From Desulfoprunum benzoelyticum (GTDB taxonomy: Bacteria; Desulfobacterota; Desulfobulbia; Desulfobulbales; Desulfocapsaceae): DNA of 64,000 nucleotides. Below are positions 4,621 through 50,069 of the stretch, piece by piece (the first letter of the stretch is position 1; each line of letters opens with the position of its first letter). Under the pieces are notes generated by a model. The model was not told the origin of the DNA. It did no database searches and saw nothing but the letters and a program-made list of their open reading frames with translations. The position numbers were made by a program, and so were the translations under genes. Location of the stretch: NCBI RefSeq assembly GCF_014201505.1, contig NZ_JACHEO010000006.1, forward strand, positions 1 through 64,000, in the 5' to 3' direction.

Positions 4621-5110
4621 CCATTATTTCGAGCCCCCCTTCAGCCATTTCAAAGAGAAGCGAAAAATCCCGTTGTTCCCGGTAGGGCAAAGGCCAAGAC
4701 ACCCACCCCCACTGTCATTTCGTTTTTTCTCCCTGTCATTTCGAAGCGAAGCGAGAAATCTCGCTTTTCCCACCGGGGCAAACGCCAAGCCACCCACCCC
4801 CACCGTCATTCCGAGCCCCCTTTTGTCATTCCGAGCGAAGCGAGAAATCTTGCTTTTCCCACCGGGGCCAAGACCAAAACAGCCACCCCCACTGTCATTC
4901 CGAGCCCCCTTTTGTCATTCCGAGCGAAGCGAGAAATCTCATCATTCCCGCCGGGGCAAAGCCAAGACGCCCACCCCCACCGTCATTCCGAGCCCCCCTT
5001 TCGTCATTTCGAAGCGAAGCGAGAAATCTCATCATTCCCGACAGGGCAAACGCCAAGCCACCCACCCCCGCCGTCATTTCGAAGCGAAGCGAGAAATCTT
5101 GCTTTTCCCC
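4621..5110 (+). repeat. Array of six interspersed-repeat units, about 90-bp period
   Basis: Gene-free stretch. The core GCGAGAAATC (first copy degenerate) begins at 4660, 4751, 4840, 4929, 5019 and 5089, giving spacings of 91, 89, 89, 90 and 70. Each unit carries the core, then a block like TTCCCRCCGGGGCAAA, then a C-rich block CCACCCCCAC, then GTCATTCCGAGCCCCCTTT. The spacers are conserved, so this is not CRISPR. Between 5110 and the promoter at 5411 nothing else is recognisable. Confidence 0.9.
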
Positions 5111-11492: not shown

Positions 11493-12266
11493 ATGAAAGC
11501 CATAATTCTGGCAGGTGGCCTAGGGACACGATTGAGCGAGGAGACCAGCATTCGTCCGAAACCGATGGTGCTAATTGGTGGCAAACCGATCCTCTGGCAC
11601 ATCATGAAGATATACTCATCTCATGGCATCAATGATTTCCTTATCTGTTGCGGCTACCAAGGCTATGTGATCAAGGAATACTTCGCCAATTATTTTCTGC
11701 ACATGTCTGATGTTACTTTTCATATGCGAGACAATGCTATGGAAGTCCATGACAAGCGTGCCGAACCTTGGAGCGTTACTCTCGTCGATACCGGTGAAAA
11801 TTCCATGACCGGAGGTCGACTGCGCCGCATCGCCCCTTACGTCCAACATGAAGATTTTTTTTGCTTTACTTACGGTGATGGCGTAGGTGATATCGATATT
11901 AGTGCGACATTGGTCTTCCACAGGCAGCATGGCAAAGCCGCCACCTTGACTGCTGCTTATCCACCCGGTCGATTTGGTGCATTGGATATCCATCAGGGCC
12001 AGGTCCTCAACTTCAAGGAAAAGCCCAAAGGTGACGGCGCCATGATTAACGGTGGTTTTTTCGTGCTAACTCCTAAAGTGTTCGATTATCTCACCGACGA
12101 CAGCACTGTCTGGGAGCAGGAACCGCTGAAGAACCTGGCGGCCGATGGGCAGCTAATGGCCTATGAACATCATGGTTTCTGGCAGCCGATGGATACTCTG
12201 CGAGACAAGCATTTACTGGAAGAGCTTTGGCAAACGGGCAAAGCACCCTGGAAAATTTGGGATTAA
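11493..12266 (+). CDS. rfbF: Glucose-1-phosphate cytidylyltransferase
   Basis: 257 aa, the full family length. Makes CDP-glucose from CTP and glucose-1-phosphate, the first step to CDP-3,6-dideoxyhexoses. The nucleotidyltransferase signature [20 protein letters not shown] is at residues 5-24, followed by [21 protein letters not shown]. First gene of rfbF-rfbG-rfbH, with a strong AGGAGG site. The stop is two bases from the rfbG start. Confidence 0.95.
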
Positions 12267-12268
12267 CA

Positions 12269-13354
12269 ATGAAAGCTTCTGTCACACCTGATTTCTGGAA
12301 AGGTAAAAAAGTCTTTCTTACCGGCCATACAGGCTTTAAAGGCAGCTGGTTGACACTCTGGCTGCAGATGTTGGGGGCAGAGGTCAAAGGTTTTGCTTTG
12401 ACGCCGCCCACTACTCCGGCTTTATTCGATGAAGCCCGTATTGAACAGGGGATGCTGTCAGAACTCGGCGATATTCGTGACCTGCAGACCATCACCCGTA
12501 GCATGATTAGCTTCAACCCGGACCTGCTGGTTCATATGGCTGCCCAATCCCTGGTGCGCCTGTCCTACCGCCAACCTGTGGAAACTTATTCCACCAACGT
12601 GATGGGCAGTCTGCATGTCTTGGAGGCCGCACGCCAATGCCCCAACCTTCGTGTTATCGTCAACGTGACCACCGACAAATGTTACGAAAATCGGGAGTGG
12701 GAATGGGGCTACCGCGAGGACGAGCCCATGGGTGGACATGACCCTTACAGCAATAGCAAGGGATGTGTAGAACTGCTCACAGCCGCCTACCGTAAATCCT
12801 TCTTCAACAATCCAGACAAGGCTGCTTTGTCCTCGGTACGGGCCGGTAACGTGATTGGTGGTGGCGACTGGGCCGAAGACCGTTTGATTCCGGATATTCT
12901 CCGTGCCTTTGAACAAAAGCAGCCGGTGGTTATTCGTAATCCTCGAGCAATCCGGCCCTGGCAGCACGTGCTGGAACCTCTCGGTGGCTATCTGGTATTG
13001 GCGGAACACCTGTGGAACCATGGCCAGGCTTTTGCCCAAGGGTGGAACTTCGGCCCAAGGGACGAAGATGTTCGCCCGGTGGAGTGGATTATGGATCACA
13101 TGGTTAAAACCTGGGGTGCAGGGACCAGTTGGAAACTGGACCTTGAGCCTCAACCCCATGAGGCGCTTTACCTTAAACTCGACATTTCAAAGGCCCAGGC
13201 TCGCCTGCACTGGTCACCCACCTGGAACCTGGGAACCGCCTTGGACCGAATCGTCAACTGGCACCGCTCCTGGTTACGCGGCGAAAATGTGCAGGTATGC
13301 TGTCTCAACGAAATCAAGACCTACATGGCGGACATGCCAGAATGTGACAAATAA
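12269..13354 (+). CDS. rfbG: CDP-glucose 4,6-dehydratase
   Basis: 361 aa extended short-chain dehydrogenase. Rossmann motif TGHTGFKGSW near the N-terminus. The catalytic SDR tyrosine lies in YSNSKGCVE (YxxxK) and the Thr in VNVTTDKCY. Converts CDP-glucose to CDP-4-keto-6-deoxyglucose. The start chosen (MKASVTPDFW) gives the family length and follows rfbF directly; an in-frame upstream extension lies within rfbF and is ignored. Confidence 0.95.
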   Translation: MKASVTPDFWKGKKVFLTGHTGFKGSWLTLWLQMLGAEVKGFALTPPTTPALFDEARIEQGMLSELGDIRDLQTITRSMISFNPDLLVHMAAQSLVRLSYRQPVETYSTNVMGSLHVLEAARQCPNLRVIVNVTTDKCYENREWEWGYREDEPMGGHDPYSNSKGCVELLTAAYRKSFFNNPDKAALSSVRAGNVIGGGDWAEDRLIPDILRAFEQKQPVVIRNPRAIRPWQHVLEPLGGYLVLAEHLWNHGQAFAQGWNFGPRDEDVRPVEWIMDHMVKTWGAGTSWKLDLEPQPHEALYLKLDISKAQARLHWSPTWNLGTALDRIVNWHRSWLRGENVQVCCLNEIKTYMADMPECDK

Positions 13355-13380: not shown

Positions 13381-14694
13381 ATGAATCCCGAGATCCTCCG
13401 CCAGGAAATACATAAGCTCGTCGAGCTGTATGCTCAAGCCACACTGTCGGTTAAACCCTTTGTTGCCGGAGAATGCGTCATCCCCCCAGCTGGCAAGATC
13501 ATTGGCGCTCGGGAATTCCAGTTGATGGTTGAAGCAGCCCTTGACGGCTGGCTCACCACCGGAAGGTTCAATGCCGAATTTGAAAAGAAACTGGCAGCAT
13601 TTCTCGGCGTTAAATATCTGATCACCGTCAATTCGGGCTCCTCGGCCAACCTTGTAGCCTTCAGTACCCTCACTTCACCGAGGCTTGGTGAGCGGGCCAT
13701 CAAAAAAGGGGATGAAGTGATTGGCGTAGCCGCAGCCTTCCCTACTACCGTTAACCCCATCGTTCAGTTTGGAGCGGTGCCGGTCTTCGTCGATGTGGAC
13801 AGGACGACCCATAACATCGATACCGACCTGATCGAAGCCGCCATCACCCCGAAAACCAAAGCCATCATGCTCGCCCATACCCTAGGCAACCCCTTCAACC
13901 TCGGCATGGTCGAGGCGCTGTGCGAAAAGTACAAGCTGTGGCTGGTCGAGGACTGCTGTGATGCCCTGGGGTCCAGGTATGATGGCAGGCTGGTTGGCAC
14001 CTTCGGCGATATCGCCACCTTGAGTTTCTACCCGGCCCACCATATCACAATGGGGGAAGGTGGTGCGGTATTCACGAATAACGGCCAACTCAAGAAGATC
14101 GCCGAATCTTTACGCGACTGGGGCCGGGATTGCTACTGTGCACCTGGCTGCGACAATACCTGCGGCAACCGCTTTGACCAACAATTCGGCAGCCTGCCGC
14201 AAGGCTATGACCACAAGTATGTATACGCCCACCTGGGCTACAACTTAAAGATCACCGACATGCAGGCCGCCTGCGGCCTGGCCCAGCTTGAGCGCGCCCA
14301 AGACTTCATCGACACCCGCAAGCGCAATTTCAAATTACTGAAGCAGCACCTCAGTCGCCTGTCTGACTATCTCGAAATTGCCGAAGCCACGCCAAACAGC
14401 GATCCGTCATGGTTTGGCTTCCCGGTCACACTCAAGGAAAGTACCGGCGTCAAACGTGTCGATCTGCTCAAGTTCCTCGATCAGAACAAGATCGGCACCC
14501 GCCTGCTTTTCGCCGGTAACCTGACCCGTCAACCGTACTTCCAGGATATTGAGTACCGGGTGGTTGGCGAACTGACCAATACCGACCGCACCATGGACCA
14601 GACCTTCTGGCTGGGGGTGTATCCGGGTCTTGGCGAAGAGCACTTCAACTTTGTTGGCGAAAAACTTGAAGAGTTCTTCGGAGTGCATTCCTAA
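13381..14694 (+). CDS. rfbH: CDP-4-keto-6-deoxyglucose-3-dehydrase (E1)
   Basis: 437 aa PLP/PMP enzyme of the aminotransferase fold that removes the C3 hydroxyl in 3,6-dideoxysugar synthesis, working with a flavin/FeS reductase not seen here. The usual Schiff-base lysine is replaced by histidine in FYPAHHITMGEGGA, the hallmark of RfbH/E1. The cysteine-rich stretch CAPGCDNTCGNRF fits its [2Fe-2S] cluster. Only 2 nt separate its stop from the next gene. Confidence 0.95.
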   Translation: MNPEILRQEIHKLVELYAQATLSVKPFVAGECVIPPAGKIIGAREFQLMVEAALDGWLTTGRFNAEFEKKLAAFLGVKYLITVNSGSSANLVAFSTLTSPRLGERAIKKGDEVIGVAAAFPTTVNPIVQFGAVPVFVDVDRTTHNIDTDLIEAAITPKTKAIMLAHTLGNPFNLGMVEALCEKYKLWLVEDCCDALGSRYDGRLVGTFGDIATLSFYPAHHITMGEGGAVFTNNGQLKKIAESLRDWGRDCYCAPGCDNTCGNRFDQQFGSLPQGYDHKYVYAHLGYNLKITDMQAACGLAQLERAQDFIDTRKRNFKLLKQHLSRLSDYLEIAEATPNSDPSWFGFPVTLKESTGVKRVDLLKFLDQNKIGTRLLFAGNLTRQPYFQDIEYRVVGELTNTDRTMDQTFWLGVYPGLGEEHFNFVGEKLEEFFGVHS

Positions 14695-14696
14695 CC

Positions 14697-15620
14697 ATGA
14701 AAACCATACTGTTGACCGGCGCTACCGGGTTTCTCGGCAGCCATTTACTGGAGGCCCTTCTGAAGGAGGGCTATTCCGTTGTTATCTTGAAACGCTCAAG
14801 CTCTAATACCTGGAGAATCCAGCACTTGCTGGATCAGGTAAAGACTTATGACGTTGATTGTGTACCGCTGGAAGTTGCATTTAGGGATCAACGGATCGAT
14901 ACTGTGATCCATACGGCTTGCCAATATGGACGTAATGGTGAGCCGATTCATAAGATTGTTGAAAGTAATTTGATGTTTGGCCTAAAACTGCTTGACGCAG
15001 CCACGTTTTTCAATACGGACACGTTTTTCAATACGGACACGTTTTTCAATACGGACATGTTTTTCAATACGGACATGTTGTTACAAAAGTACTTGAATGC
15101 ATACACGCTGTCAAAAAAACAGTTTGTCGAATGGCTACATTTGCAAAGTGAAAAGATTCAGGTGGTCAATCTCAAACTGGAACACATTTATGGCCCGAAA
15201 GATGACAAGACCAAATTTGTCCCGTGGGTTATCGATCAGCTAGAACGGCAGGTAGAGGAAGTCAAGCTTACCATGGGTGAACAGGAGCGCGATTTTGTTT
15301 ATATTGACGATGTTATTTCAGCCTACCTGCTGACTCTGAAAAAAACTATGCAGATGGAGCGCTTTACAGAGTTTGATGTTGGCACAGGGATGCTCACTTC
15401 CGTCAGGAATTTTGTCGAAGAAATCAAGCGTGCGCATGAAACTCTGTATGGCAAAAGCAACACATTACTTCACTTCGGAGCCCTTCCATATAGCGCCGGT
15501 GAAATGATGACTATCAACGTGGATAACAAGCTACTTACTGATTTGGGCTGGGCTTTCAATATATCAATACAGGCAGGTATTACGAAAATAATAAGCCTAA
15601 AACTACAAAGTGATTTGTGA
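14697..15620 (+). CDS. NAD-dependent sugar epimerase/reductase, CDP-abequose/paratose synthase-like
   Basis: 307 aa SDR. TGATGFLGSHLLEALL binds the nucleotide and YTLSK is the catalytic YxxxK. Its place after rfbFGH makes a CDP-3,6-dideoxyhexose 4-reductase (abequose or paratose synthase type) the likely role. Residues 103-126 are four tandem copies of a six-residue unit (TFFNTD, the last MFFNTD) encoded by an 18-bp DNA repeat just before the active-site helix. Relatives are remembered to have one such unit, so this is probably an expansion; in-frame changes in copy number would keep the reading frame. Confidence 0.8.
   Translation: MKTILLTGATGFLGSHLLEALLKEGYSVVILKRSSSNTWRIQHLLDQVKTYDVDCVPLEVAFRDQRIDTVIHTACQYGRNGEPIHKIVESNLMFGLKLLDAATFFNTDTFFNTDTFFNTDMFFNTDMLLQKYLNAYTLSKKQFVEWLHLQSEKIQVVNLKLEHIYGPKDDKTKFVPWVIDQLERQVEEVKLTMGEQERDFVYIDDVISAYLLTLKKTMQMERFTEFDVGTGMLTSVRNFVEEIKRAHETLYGKSNTLLHFGALPYSAGEMMTINVDNKLLTDLGWAFNISIQAGITKIISLKLQSDL
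15003..15074 (+). repeat. In-frame 18-bp tandem repeat, four copies
   Basis: The unit ACGTTTTTCAATACGGAC occurs three times exactly (15003, 15021, 15039) and once with ACG changed to ATG (15057). It is a multiple of three, so slippage alters protein length without a frameshift. Confidence 0.95.
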
Positions 15621-15739
15621 CAACCAGTTATATATATGGTATGCCAGAAAATCTGGATGTGTGCTTGGGTAGAAAGCACTATTACTAAAGAAAGTAGATA
15701 TGCAACCGGTTTTGCCTATAAGGCTATAGTCGACATCTC

Positions 15740-17134
15740 TTGATGGGTTTTGCGAGAAGCAAAGGCGATATTGTGTCAAATTTTGTAATTAACCTCCTGA
15801 GATTGTTCGGTGTGAATAGAGCTATCGGTTTTGGTATTCTTACCCGTATGTGGAGTGCCCTGGCCGGGCCTCTCACCATTATCCTTATAGCAACCCGTTT
15901 TTCAGATGTTGAGCAGGGCTATTACTATACTTTCAGTAGCTTACTGGCGATTCAGGTCTTTTTCGAGCTTGGCCTGCTCACTGTCCTAGCTCAATTTGCC
16001 GCTCATGAATTTGCTTTTCTTTCGTGGGGAGAAAAGGGTGAGGTAACAGGCAGTGAGGTGCACTGTGACCGATTTGTTGATTTGCTCGGCAAGGGGTTCA
16101 AATGGTACACTGTCAGTGCAGTGATGCTGATTCTTGTCTTAATTCCAGCAGGTTTCTTGTTTTTCACTCAATCCTCCGCCAATGCTGTTGATTTTTTCTG
16201 GCGTATACCATGGGCATTGGCAGTAATCAGCGTCGGGTGTAACCTGCTGTTGATTCCCTTTTACGCCGTCATATCCGGTAGTGGCGATGTGGCCTCAATC
16301 AACCGCCGGGAAATGATGGGCGGAATGGCGGGTTCGATTTTTGGTTGGATGGTAATAGCGTTCGGCGGTGGATTGTATGCAATTCCAGCAGTTATGACAG
16401 GAAATATCATTGTGGGTGTAATGTACCTGTTCAGAAGTAAACCCCGGTTAGTGAAAGCGGCTTTTTCCTATGCTTTCGGTCCGCGGAGGTCTTCTCACAC
16501 AATCTATTGGTGGGGAGAAGTCTGGCCAATGCAGTGGAAGATTGCTTTGTCTTGGGTTTCGGGATACTTCATATTTCAATTATTTACTCCGGTACTCTTT
16601 AAATTTCACGGGCCTGTGGAGGCGGGACAGATGGGGATGACGCTGAGTGCTGTCAATGCAGTGCAAGGTGTATGCCTTATGTGGCTTAACGCCAGAAGTC
16701 CTGAATTCGGTAAGTTGATTGCGCTCAAGAAATGGCGCGATCTTGATATATTTTTTAACCAAATTCTGAAGCAGGCAATGATAGTTAGTGTTGTCCTTGC
16801 TACAGTTGCAGTTTTGGTAGTTGCAGGAATTCAATCTTATACAACCATCGGTACTCGTTTTCTTCCGGTACTGCAGGTTATGATTTTTCTTGTAGCTGTC
16901 TGCGGAAATATTGCTATCAGTGGTTGGGCTGTTTATATGCGAGCCTATAAGCAAGAACCGATGTTATTACTCTCTATAATTTGTGCTGTTTTAGTTGGAA
17001 CTTCGACTATTTTTTTTGGTATGAAATATTCGAGTTGTGGAATAGCTTTATCGTACTGTTTTATAACATTATTATATGGAATTCCTTCAACTTATATTTG
17101 TTTTGTAAAATTCAAAGAGCGTTACCAAAAATGA
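15740..17134 (+). CDS. O-antigen/polysaccharide flippase (Wzx-like)
   Basis: 464 aa with about twelve hydrophobic helices along the whole length, no signal peptide and no large soluble domain, as in the MATE/MOP flippases that export lipid-linked O-units. It lies among O-antigen genes. The GC content drops from here through about 20.8 kb. The start could be either of two adjacent ATGs (15740 or 15743), or later. No wzy-type polymerase was recognised in the cluster. Confidence 0.75.
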   Translation: MMGFARSKGDIVSNFVINLLRLFGVNRAIGFGILTRMWSALAGPLTIILIATRFSDVEQGYYYTFSSLLAIQVFFELGLLTVLAQFAAHEFAFLSWGEKGEVTGSEVHCDRFVDLLGKGFKWYTVSAVMLILVLIPAGFLFFTQSSANAVDFFWRIPWALAVISVGCNLLLIPFYAVISGSGDVASINRREMMGGMAGSIFGWMVIAFGGGLYAIPAVMTGNIIVGVMYLFRSKPRLVKAAFSYAFGPRRSSHTIYWWGEVWPMQWKIALSWVSGYFIFQLFTPVLFKFHGPVEAGQMGMTLSAVNAVQGVCLMWLNARSPEFGKLIALKKWRDLDIFFNQILKQAMIVSVVLATVAVLVVAGIQSYTTIGTRFLPVLQVMIFLVAVCGNIAISGWAVYMRAYKQEPMLLLSIICAVLVGTSTIFFGMKYSSCGIALSYCFITLLYGIPSTYICFVKFKERYQK

Positions 17135-23689: not shown

Positions 23690-24060
23690 AAGCAAGATTT
23701 CTCGCTTCGCTTCGAAATGACAGCGGGGGTGGGAGTTTGGGTTTGGCCCTATCGGGAATGGTGAAATTTCTCGCTTTGCTTGGAATGACAGCGGGGGTTG
23801 GAGTTTGGGTTTGGCCCTATCGGGAAGGGTGAGATTTCTCGCTTTGCTCGGAATGACAGCGGGGGTGGGGGTATGGGCTTGGCCTTAACGGGAACAGCAA
23901 GATTTCTCGCTTCGCTTCGAAATGACCGCGGGGGTTGGGTTTTGGACATTGGCCCTATCGGGAATGATGAGATTTCTCGCTTCGCTTCGAAATGACAGGA
24001 AGAAAAACGGAATGACAGCGGGGGTGAGAGTGTGGGCTTGGCCCTATCGGGAAGTATCTC
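23690..24060 (-). repeat. Array of five interspersed-repeat units, about 69-bp period, inverted
   Basis: The core GATTTCTCGC (the reverse complement of that at 4.6 kb) begins at 23696, 23765, 23833, 23901 and 23971, followed by a partial unit to about 24060. The unit lacks the extra CCGAGCCCCC block of the first array, which explains the shorter period. No gene lies between 23489 and 24149. Confidence 0.9.
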
Positions 24061-49142: not shown

Positions 49143-50069
49143 ATGTACGCACAATTGTCCAGCATCGGCCTGGTGGTGACGCTCGCCCTGCTGTCCGGCT
49201 GCGCCACCGGCAATCAGGAACGGATGGTGCGGGAAGGCAAAACCCAGCTCTCTGCCGAACAGATCTTCCAGACGGTCTCCGGCAATACCGTGCATCTGAA
49301 AGCCATCGATTTCAACGCCCGGGTGCATTTTCTCGACAGCGGCCGGATTTCCGCCCGGAGCAGCGGCAACAGCCGCGACACCGGCGCGTGGGACGTCAGC
49401 AGCGACCAACAGCTGTGCCTGAAATTCGACACCTGGTATTACGGTGACGAACGCTGCTTCACGATGGTCGGGACCGGGGCCGGCAACTATGCCCTCTTCA
49501 CCGCCAACGGGGCCCGGGCTTATACCGCCGCCGTAGCCGAGGGTGATCCGGAAAAGCTGGCAACGGCCGGCCGGAAGAAGGACAAGGCCTACCTGCGGGC
49601 GAAAATGGCGTCCGGTCAGCCGGCCGCCGCTGACCGACCGTCCCCGTCAGCGGCGGCGCCGGCGCCGGCCCCGCCGCCCCGGGTGGTCGCCTCACCCCCG
49701 CCGCCGCCGGAGGAGCTCCGCCACACCCTGGCCTTCATGGCCAGAAACTGCCCCAACTGCAACCTCGCCGGGGCCGACCTCGCCGGGGCCGACCTGGTCA
49801 CCGCCAACCTCGCCGGCGCCAATCTCGCCGGCGCCGACCTCAGCCGCGCCAACCTGCGCCGGGCCAACCTTGCCGGCGCCAATCTGGCCGGGGCGACCCT
49901 GGTCAACGCCAACCTGCTCGGGGCCAATCTCGCCAACTGCAACATGAGCGACGCCGACCTCAGCGGCGCCAGCCTGATCAAGGCCAATCTCACCGGAGCG
50001 ATGACACGGGGCGTAGGCCTTCAGGGCGCCCATCTCGAAGGGGTCGTCGGCCTGGAGCGCCGGCCATGA
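49143..50069 (+). CDS. Pentapeptide-repeat lipoprotein
   Basis: 308 aa. Lipobox LLSGC with Cys20. An N-terminal beta-rich region (SGRISARSSGNSRDTGAWDV) is followed by a proline/alanine-rich linker and, from about residue 202, two dozen A(D/N)LxG pentapeptides forming a right-handed beta-helix. A clear AGGAGG site precedes the ATG. The GC-rich repeat section is low in complexity. Function unknown. The stop overlaps dnaE. Confidence 0.85.
   Translation: MYAQLSSIGLVVTLALLSGCATGNQERMVREGKTQLSAEQIFQTVSGNTVHLKAIDFNARVHFLDSGRISARSSGNSRDTGAWDVSSDQQLCLKFDTWYYGDERCFTMVGTGAGNYALFTANGARAYTAAVAEGDPEKLATAGRKKDKAYLRAKMASGQPAAADRPSPSAAAPAPAPPPRVVASPPPPPEELRHTLAFMARNCPNCNLAGADLAGADLVTANLAGANLAGADLSRANLRRANLAGANLAGATLVNANLLGANLANCNMSDADLSGASLIKANLTGAMTRGVGLQGAHLEGVVGLERRP

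Follow-up and report, generated by a model that had tools for sequence, protein, structure and literature searches.

The SDR gene that follows rfbH in an rfbF-rfbG-rfbH cluster of Desulfoprunum benzoelyticum carries four in-frame copies of an 18-bp unit coding for the strand segment next to the active site. The gene quite probably encodes a paratose/abequose-type reductase in which this catalytic strand segment was expanded from two copies to four by slippage, the additional copies being tolerated as a loop. In the window, which is the whole stretch of 64,000 nucleotides analysed, the four units occupy positions 15003-15074. Units 1 to 3 are identical, with the sequence ACGTTTTTCAATACGGAC at 15003-15020, 15021-15038 and 15039-15056, and unit 4 (15057-15074) has a single change, beginning with ATG where units 1-3 begin with ACG; the partial unit that follows it likewise begins with ATG. 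TRF calls the array at 15002-15079, with a period of 18, 4.3 copies and 98% matches. The longest unbroken self-match at a lag of 18 is 38 bp, compared to a maximum of 11 in 100 sequences of 64 kb simulated with a first-order Markov model. The encoded residues are TFFNTD three times, then MFFNTD and MLLQK, followed by Y136xxxK140, and the ORF (14697-15620, forward strand) encodes 307 amino acids with no internal stops. The first-pass annotation had described four 18-bp in-frame units ahead of the YxxxK motif, and the coordinates, the TRF call and the uninterrupted ORF all bear this out. Since a unit of 18 bp is a multiple of three and the frame is kept, a frame-shifting phase switch is ruled out. 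The parts of the array and the residues near it are as follows:

15003-15020, forward strand: unit 1, TFFNTD, residues 103-108, modelled by AlphaFold as the end of the preceding helix and a turn
15021-15038, forward strand: unit 2, TFFNTD, residues 109-114, beta-strand of the fold (assigned by DSSP to 109-114 in each of the two AlphaFold models)
15039-15041, forward strand: Thr115 codon, at the alignment position of the Ser/Thr that is catalytic in SDRs
15042-15077, forward strand: insert of 36 bp (12 aa) relative to the closest relative, FFNTDMFFNTDM, residues 116-127, seen as a gap in protein and DNA alignments
15075-15077, forward strand: Met127 codon, adjoining the ancestral downstream LLQK, at a place where relatives have the catalytic Thr/Ser
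15102-15116, forward strand: Y136xxxK140 motif, read from the sequence

No second copy of the array was detected in the 3.78-Mb assembly, where a query of 121 bp around the array matched its own site only, and viral contigs had 0 matches, whether to the pattern of the 18-bp unit or to a degenerate pattern of two units. Repeats of other kinds are also present in the window. Arrays of a dispersed repeat with the core AGATTTCTCGCTTCGCTTCGAAATGAC flank the polysaccharide cluster in opposite orientation (4626-5082 and 23695-23998); with up to 2 mismatches allowed, the genome contains this core 78 times and its reversed control 0 times. In addition, an array with a 15-bp period at 49760-49934 encodes a pentapeptide repeat of the NLAGA type, as read by eye.

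The array-bearing gene is located in a sugar nucleotide cluster with the following genes:

11493-12266, forward strand: rfbF, glucose-1-phosphate cytidylyltransferase (TIGR02623, 470 bits, cut-off 300)
12227-13354, forward strand: rfbG, CDP-glucose 4,6-dehydratase (TIGR02622, 501 bits, cut-off 278)
13381-14694, forward strand: rfbH, CDP-6-deoxy-4-keto-glucose 3-dehydrase (NF011936, 737 bits, cut-off 423)
14697-15620, forward strand: CDP-paratose/abequose-synthase-like SDR with the array, 307 aa (Pfam Epimerase, alignments and the neighbours of its relatives)

The products of rfbF, rfbG and rfbH all score above their NCBIfam cut-offs, and the SDR gene lies directly after rfbH. The ORF of rfbG is listed from a TTG, and its real start is probably a later ATG. 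The SDR has a Pfam Epimerase match of 120 bits, a GxxGxxG motif near the N-terminus (TGATGFLG at residues 7-14), and a predicted structure that matches SDR epimerases, among them UDP-glucose 4-epimerase 4zrn_A (Z 32.6, rmsd 2.2, 284 residues). It shares 37% identity with the annotated CDP-abequose synthase of Salmonella and 31% with the CDP-paratose synthase. Among the best 25 of 31 NCBIfam matches, no model is named for paratose or abequose synthase, and the top one, TIGR02197, reaches 70.6 bits with a cut-off of 274.6. From its sequence and surroundings, the protein best fits a predicted CDP-paratose/abequose synthase (CDP-3,6-dideoxyhexose reductase); the gene class given in the first-pass annotation, a CDP-dideoxyhexose reductase, is thus supported by an SDR right after rfbF-rfbG-rfbH.

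The neighbours in related loci point in the same direction. A match to RfbH is present in 25 of the 31 relatives' loci (the others being L036, L041, L045, L046, L047 and L048), and RfbE, which the annotation of L038 names as a CDP-paratose 2-epimerase, is matched at ~62-100% in 25 of the 31, a count that includes L036 and L137 (the latter being L022 again), whose matches are partial. For the remaining loci, L047 has a match of 24% only, and L037, L041, L046, L048 and L154 have none; these loci mostly span a few kb, so that a missing neighbour may simply reflect the end of the locus. The usual order in the relatives, rfbH-SDR-rfbE, points to a paratose synthase. In the genome of the window itself, no close match to rfbE is present beside the SDR gene or elsewhere in an assembly that is 93% complete (best identity 27%), which makes paratose or abequose a likelier end product than tyvelose, as judged from gene content. 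At 15620-15740, directly after the SDR gene, the window has no rfbE and instead a flippase-like ORF, named by eye from its sequence.

The SDR gene has a patchy distribution. Among 97 genomes, consisting of the window's own genome and its nearest kin, 95 have some SDR match, the best beyond the own gene (E 1.5e-14, 29% identity) belonging to other SDRs. At 1e-25, a search of 257 genomes from the class found no gene besides the window's own. A draw from the phylum had matches at 1e-20 in 9 of its 395 genomes, and the genomes around G532 had matches at 1e-30 in 20 of 244. The closest relative, L022, is found in Deltaproteobacteria bacterium LaCa_MAG_21 (genome G801), which is kin at the phylum level only, and its product is 74% identical in amino acid sequence. 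Given this patchy spread, the gene has probably moved horizontally together with its cluster. The cluster also has the look of a mosaic. Identity to L022 is 0.75-0.86 over most of rfbF-rfbG, rises to 0.86-0.95 from ~13.5 kb to 15.15 kb, and then drops to 0.74, 0.70 and 0.60. The dS values relative to L022 are 1.26 for rfbF, 0.87 for rfbG and 0.37 for rfbH, and within the SDR gene 0.27 for residues 1-102, 0.83 for residues 128-215, and saturated beyond. The array is located near the downstream edge of this block of low divergence (13500-15150), which ends just past it. Such a block of high identity in an otherwise divergent cluster suggests recombination, as expected in O-antigen clusters.

L022 retains the order rfbF-rfbG-rfbH-SDR and has two units (ATFFNTATFFNTDT-LLQK), which are alike at 16 of 18 bp. 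Compared to this gene, the window shows a clean gap of 36 bp and 12 residues in the DNA and protein alignments. The family alignment holds 30 other rows, 29 of them distinct as L137 duplicates L022, and all 29 keep the strand segment without the insert of the window. It had been predicted beforehand that relatives would be without the four units, which proved correct: none of the 29 (0/29) has four. The same alignment, which had been proposed as the check on the ancestral copy number, indicates that the ancestral gene had the length of the two-unit form and that the SDR of the window has gained exactly 12 residues. The insert falls in a part of the fold where length varies. With the spacing of some rows counted by eye, the catalytic Thr/Ser and Tyr are separated by 9 residues in 24 of the 29 members, by 15 in L036, L037 and L154, and by 24 and 23 in the distant L047 and L048, compared to 21 in the SDR of the window. 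In a wider alignment of 102 SDR rows, a set that includes near-copies, most have 22-30 residues at this place. The column of Thr115 in these 102 relatives contains 50 Thr, 45 Ser and 7 gaps, that is, Thr or Ser in 95 of 95 letters, and the YxxxK columns have Tyr in 99 of 102 and Lys in 98 of 102.

With few exceptions, the relatives read F-x-N-T-D-(T/S) in this segment, which we take to be the strand ending in the catalytic Ser/Thr of SDRs, exemplified by S124 of E. coli GalE. Of the four units in the window, the first two have Thr as the next residue and the last two have Met; alignment gives T115, Y136 and K140 as the catalytic residues, in a register that the array makes formally ambiguous. 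MAFFT, phmmer (against 4zrm) and AlphaFold agree that the strand is unit 2 and the catalytic residue Thr115; in the phmmer alignment, Thr115 pairs with the Thr of the 4zrm segment FIFSST, and units 3 and 4 fall in a loop. The AlphaFold model of the window SDR has a mean pLDDT of 93.4, with a strand at 109-114 and a helix at 135-150 containing Tyr136, and is least confident in the array, with block means of 78 (residues 111-120) and 57 (121-130). In the model of the two-unit L022 (pLDDT 92.5), the strand is likewise at 109-114 and the helix, with Tyr124, at 123-138. The AlphaFold placement is support rather than proof, because the input alignment is not neutral: some rows are shifted by 1-2 residues, and L049 and L050 are split across the insert. 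Alignment of a repeat is also inherently ambiguous, and the insert can be drawn before the strand, in which case the copy on the LLQK side becomes the strand and Met127 takes the catalytic place. Most likely, judged from alignments and models together, the unit encodes a beta-strand with the catalytic Ser/Thr at its end, with unit 2 taking this role and Thr115 being catalytic, and the model, which is of low confidence at the insert, suggests that the insert is a loop between Thr115 and Tyr136.

The rise from two in-frame 18-bp copies of the strand segment T-FFNTD-T to four probably came about through replication slippage, or unequal exchange, on a direct repeat that already had two copies. Units 1 and 2 would have stayed where the two-copy relative has them, with unit 2 forming the strand and Thr115 supplying the catalytic Thr, while units 3 and 4 (FFNTDMFFNTDM) would form a spare loop of 12 residues between Thr115 and Tyr136, where SDR length varies naturally. 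The simplest path from an ancestor similar to L022 would be duplication of the strand unit, a change of Thr to Met in the spare copy, and duplication of the Met-bearing unit; alternatively, a 36-bp duplication may have been followed by the changes. Units 1-3 are identical, whereas the flanking DNA differs by ~10% from L022, which suggests that the expansion is recent when compared with the divergence from L022. Since this loop site is naturally variable in length in SDRs, the four-unit enzyme most likely still folds and works. The expansion is most likely near-neutral. The dN/dS values relative to L022, ~0.25 for residues 1-102 and 0.16 for residues 128-215, indicate that the gene has been under constraint, although they average over a long branch and could mask a recent loss of function.

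Two-copy repeats, an older state than the array of four, are found at the same site in other genes of the family. L144 (G814:C135:21094-21942), a gene with 45% identity, has a perfect 18/18-bp repeat of two copies at the same place, ACCTATTTTAATACCGAT twice, and its unit differs in sequence from that of the window and L022. The likeness of the two copies is 16/18 in L022, 12/18 in L041, 10/18 in L042 and L139, and at most 8 in the remaining rows. The copies in L144 resemble each other more than they resemble those of L022 or the window, which implies either independent copying or homogenisation. In the tree, L144 is placed apart from the window and L022 and two changes are required; a single origin of the two-copy state is therefore disfavoured, though the AU test does not reject a clade that unites the window with L022, L041 and L144 (p-AU 0.096). 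Independent origins in L144 and in the L022/window lineage are thus only favoured. As the two-copy genes keep an unchanged length, the copying there would have replaced six codons rather than added them, and the presence of a two-copy repeat in the distant L144 makes the site appear to be recurrently copied. A bolder reading holds that the site is a hot spot at which strand DNA is copied beside itself again and again in different lineages. With spare copies at hand, the enzyme could choose which one supplies its catalytic strand, the original Thr could be lost (Met127) and the loop over the active site could drift in steps of 6 residues, perhaps with an effect on C4 stereochemistry or substrate range; we regard this reading as rather improbable.

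Several other explanations of the array have been weighed against expansion into a tolerated loop. The expansion may have put the Met copy in the catalytic place of an enzyme on its way to being lost, with rfbE already gone. Met127 does stand where relatives have Thr/Ser if the insert is drawn upstream, and together with the missing close rfbE this leaves some room for a damaged enzyme; however, a register that keeps Thr115 exists and is recovered by MAFFT, phmmer and AlphaFold alike, and the ORF and all motifs are intact, which renders damage unlikely. The copy number could also vary within the population and, as the first-pass annotation put forward, tune the activity or specificity of the reductase and, with it, the O antigen. 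The units are identical enough to slip, every change would be in frame, the predicted loop lies at the active site, and the number of in-frame repeats controls O-antigen fucosylation in Helicobacter pylori, according to the excerpted text of PMC2583950. This analogy is strained by the C-terminal position of the H. pylori repeats, outside any active-site loop, and the cases seen amount to a single four-unit genome and a single gene in which two near-identical units share that sequence, so that a tuning locus seems quite unlikely. It is highly improbable that the real copy number is other than four through an assembly or sequencing error: the assembly is in 51 contigs, but the array of 72-78 bp is shorter than an ordinary read and unit 4 can be told apart by a base change of its own.

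Expansion of the catalytic strand segment into a tolerated loop thus remains the preferred reading, and it can be set beside known systems. The closest counterparts are RfbJ (CDP-abequose synthase) and RfbS (CDP-paratose synthase) from the O-antigen clusters of Salmonella, which share the position directly after rfbH, the F-x-N strand segment and YxxxK but, at 37% and 31% identity, have a single copy of the strand and no array. Frame-shifting phase variation through simple sequence repeats exists in LPS genes; it likewise involves slippage in a gene for a surface sugar, whereas the 18-bp units of the window cannot shift the frame. A tandem repeat in an abequose or paratose synthase was not found in the open literature, judged on titles and the starts of abstracts, and the available part of PMC4452650 reports no rfbJ repeat. 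In the alpha1,3-fucosyltransferases FutA and FutB of H. pylori, as described in the excerpt of PMC2583950, C-terminal heptad repeats vary between isolates and change O-antigen fucosylation. As far as that excerpt goes, they resemble the window SDR in being enzymes of O-antigen synthesis with tandem units that stay in frame and are open to slippage; the heptads are C-terminal and known to be variable, whereas the unit of the window SDR is a catalytic strand and its four-unit form is known from one genome. The array provides a natural case of duplication of a catalytic secondary-structure element in which a change from Thr to Met indicates which copy is likely in use, and the two units of L022 and the four of the window form a ready series for studying how enzymes tolerate in-frame repeats at the active site. 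By itself, it looks like modest natural tinkering, in which copying errors have added a flexible loop, and not like a new regulatory system or a proven switch. In T4 lysozyme, an engineered duplication of a secondary-structure element reportedly leaves two equal segments competing for one place, with one of them spare; the window SDR shares this spare segment, and differs in that the duplication in lysozyme was engineered, concerns a helix and lies away from the catalytic residue.
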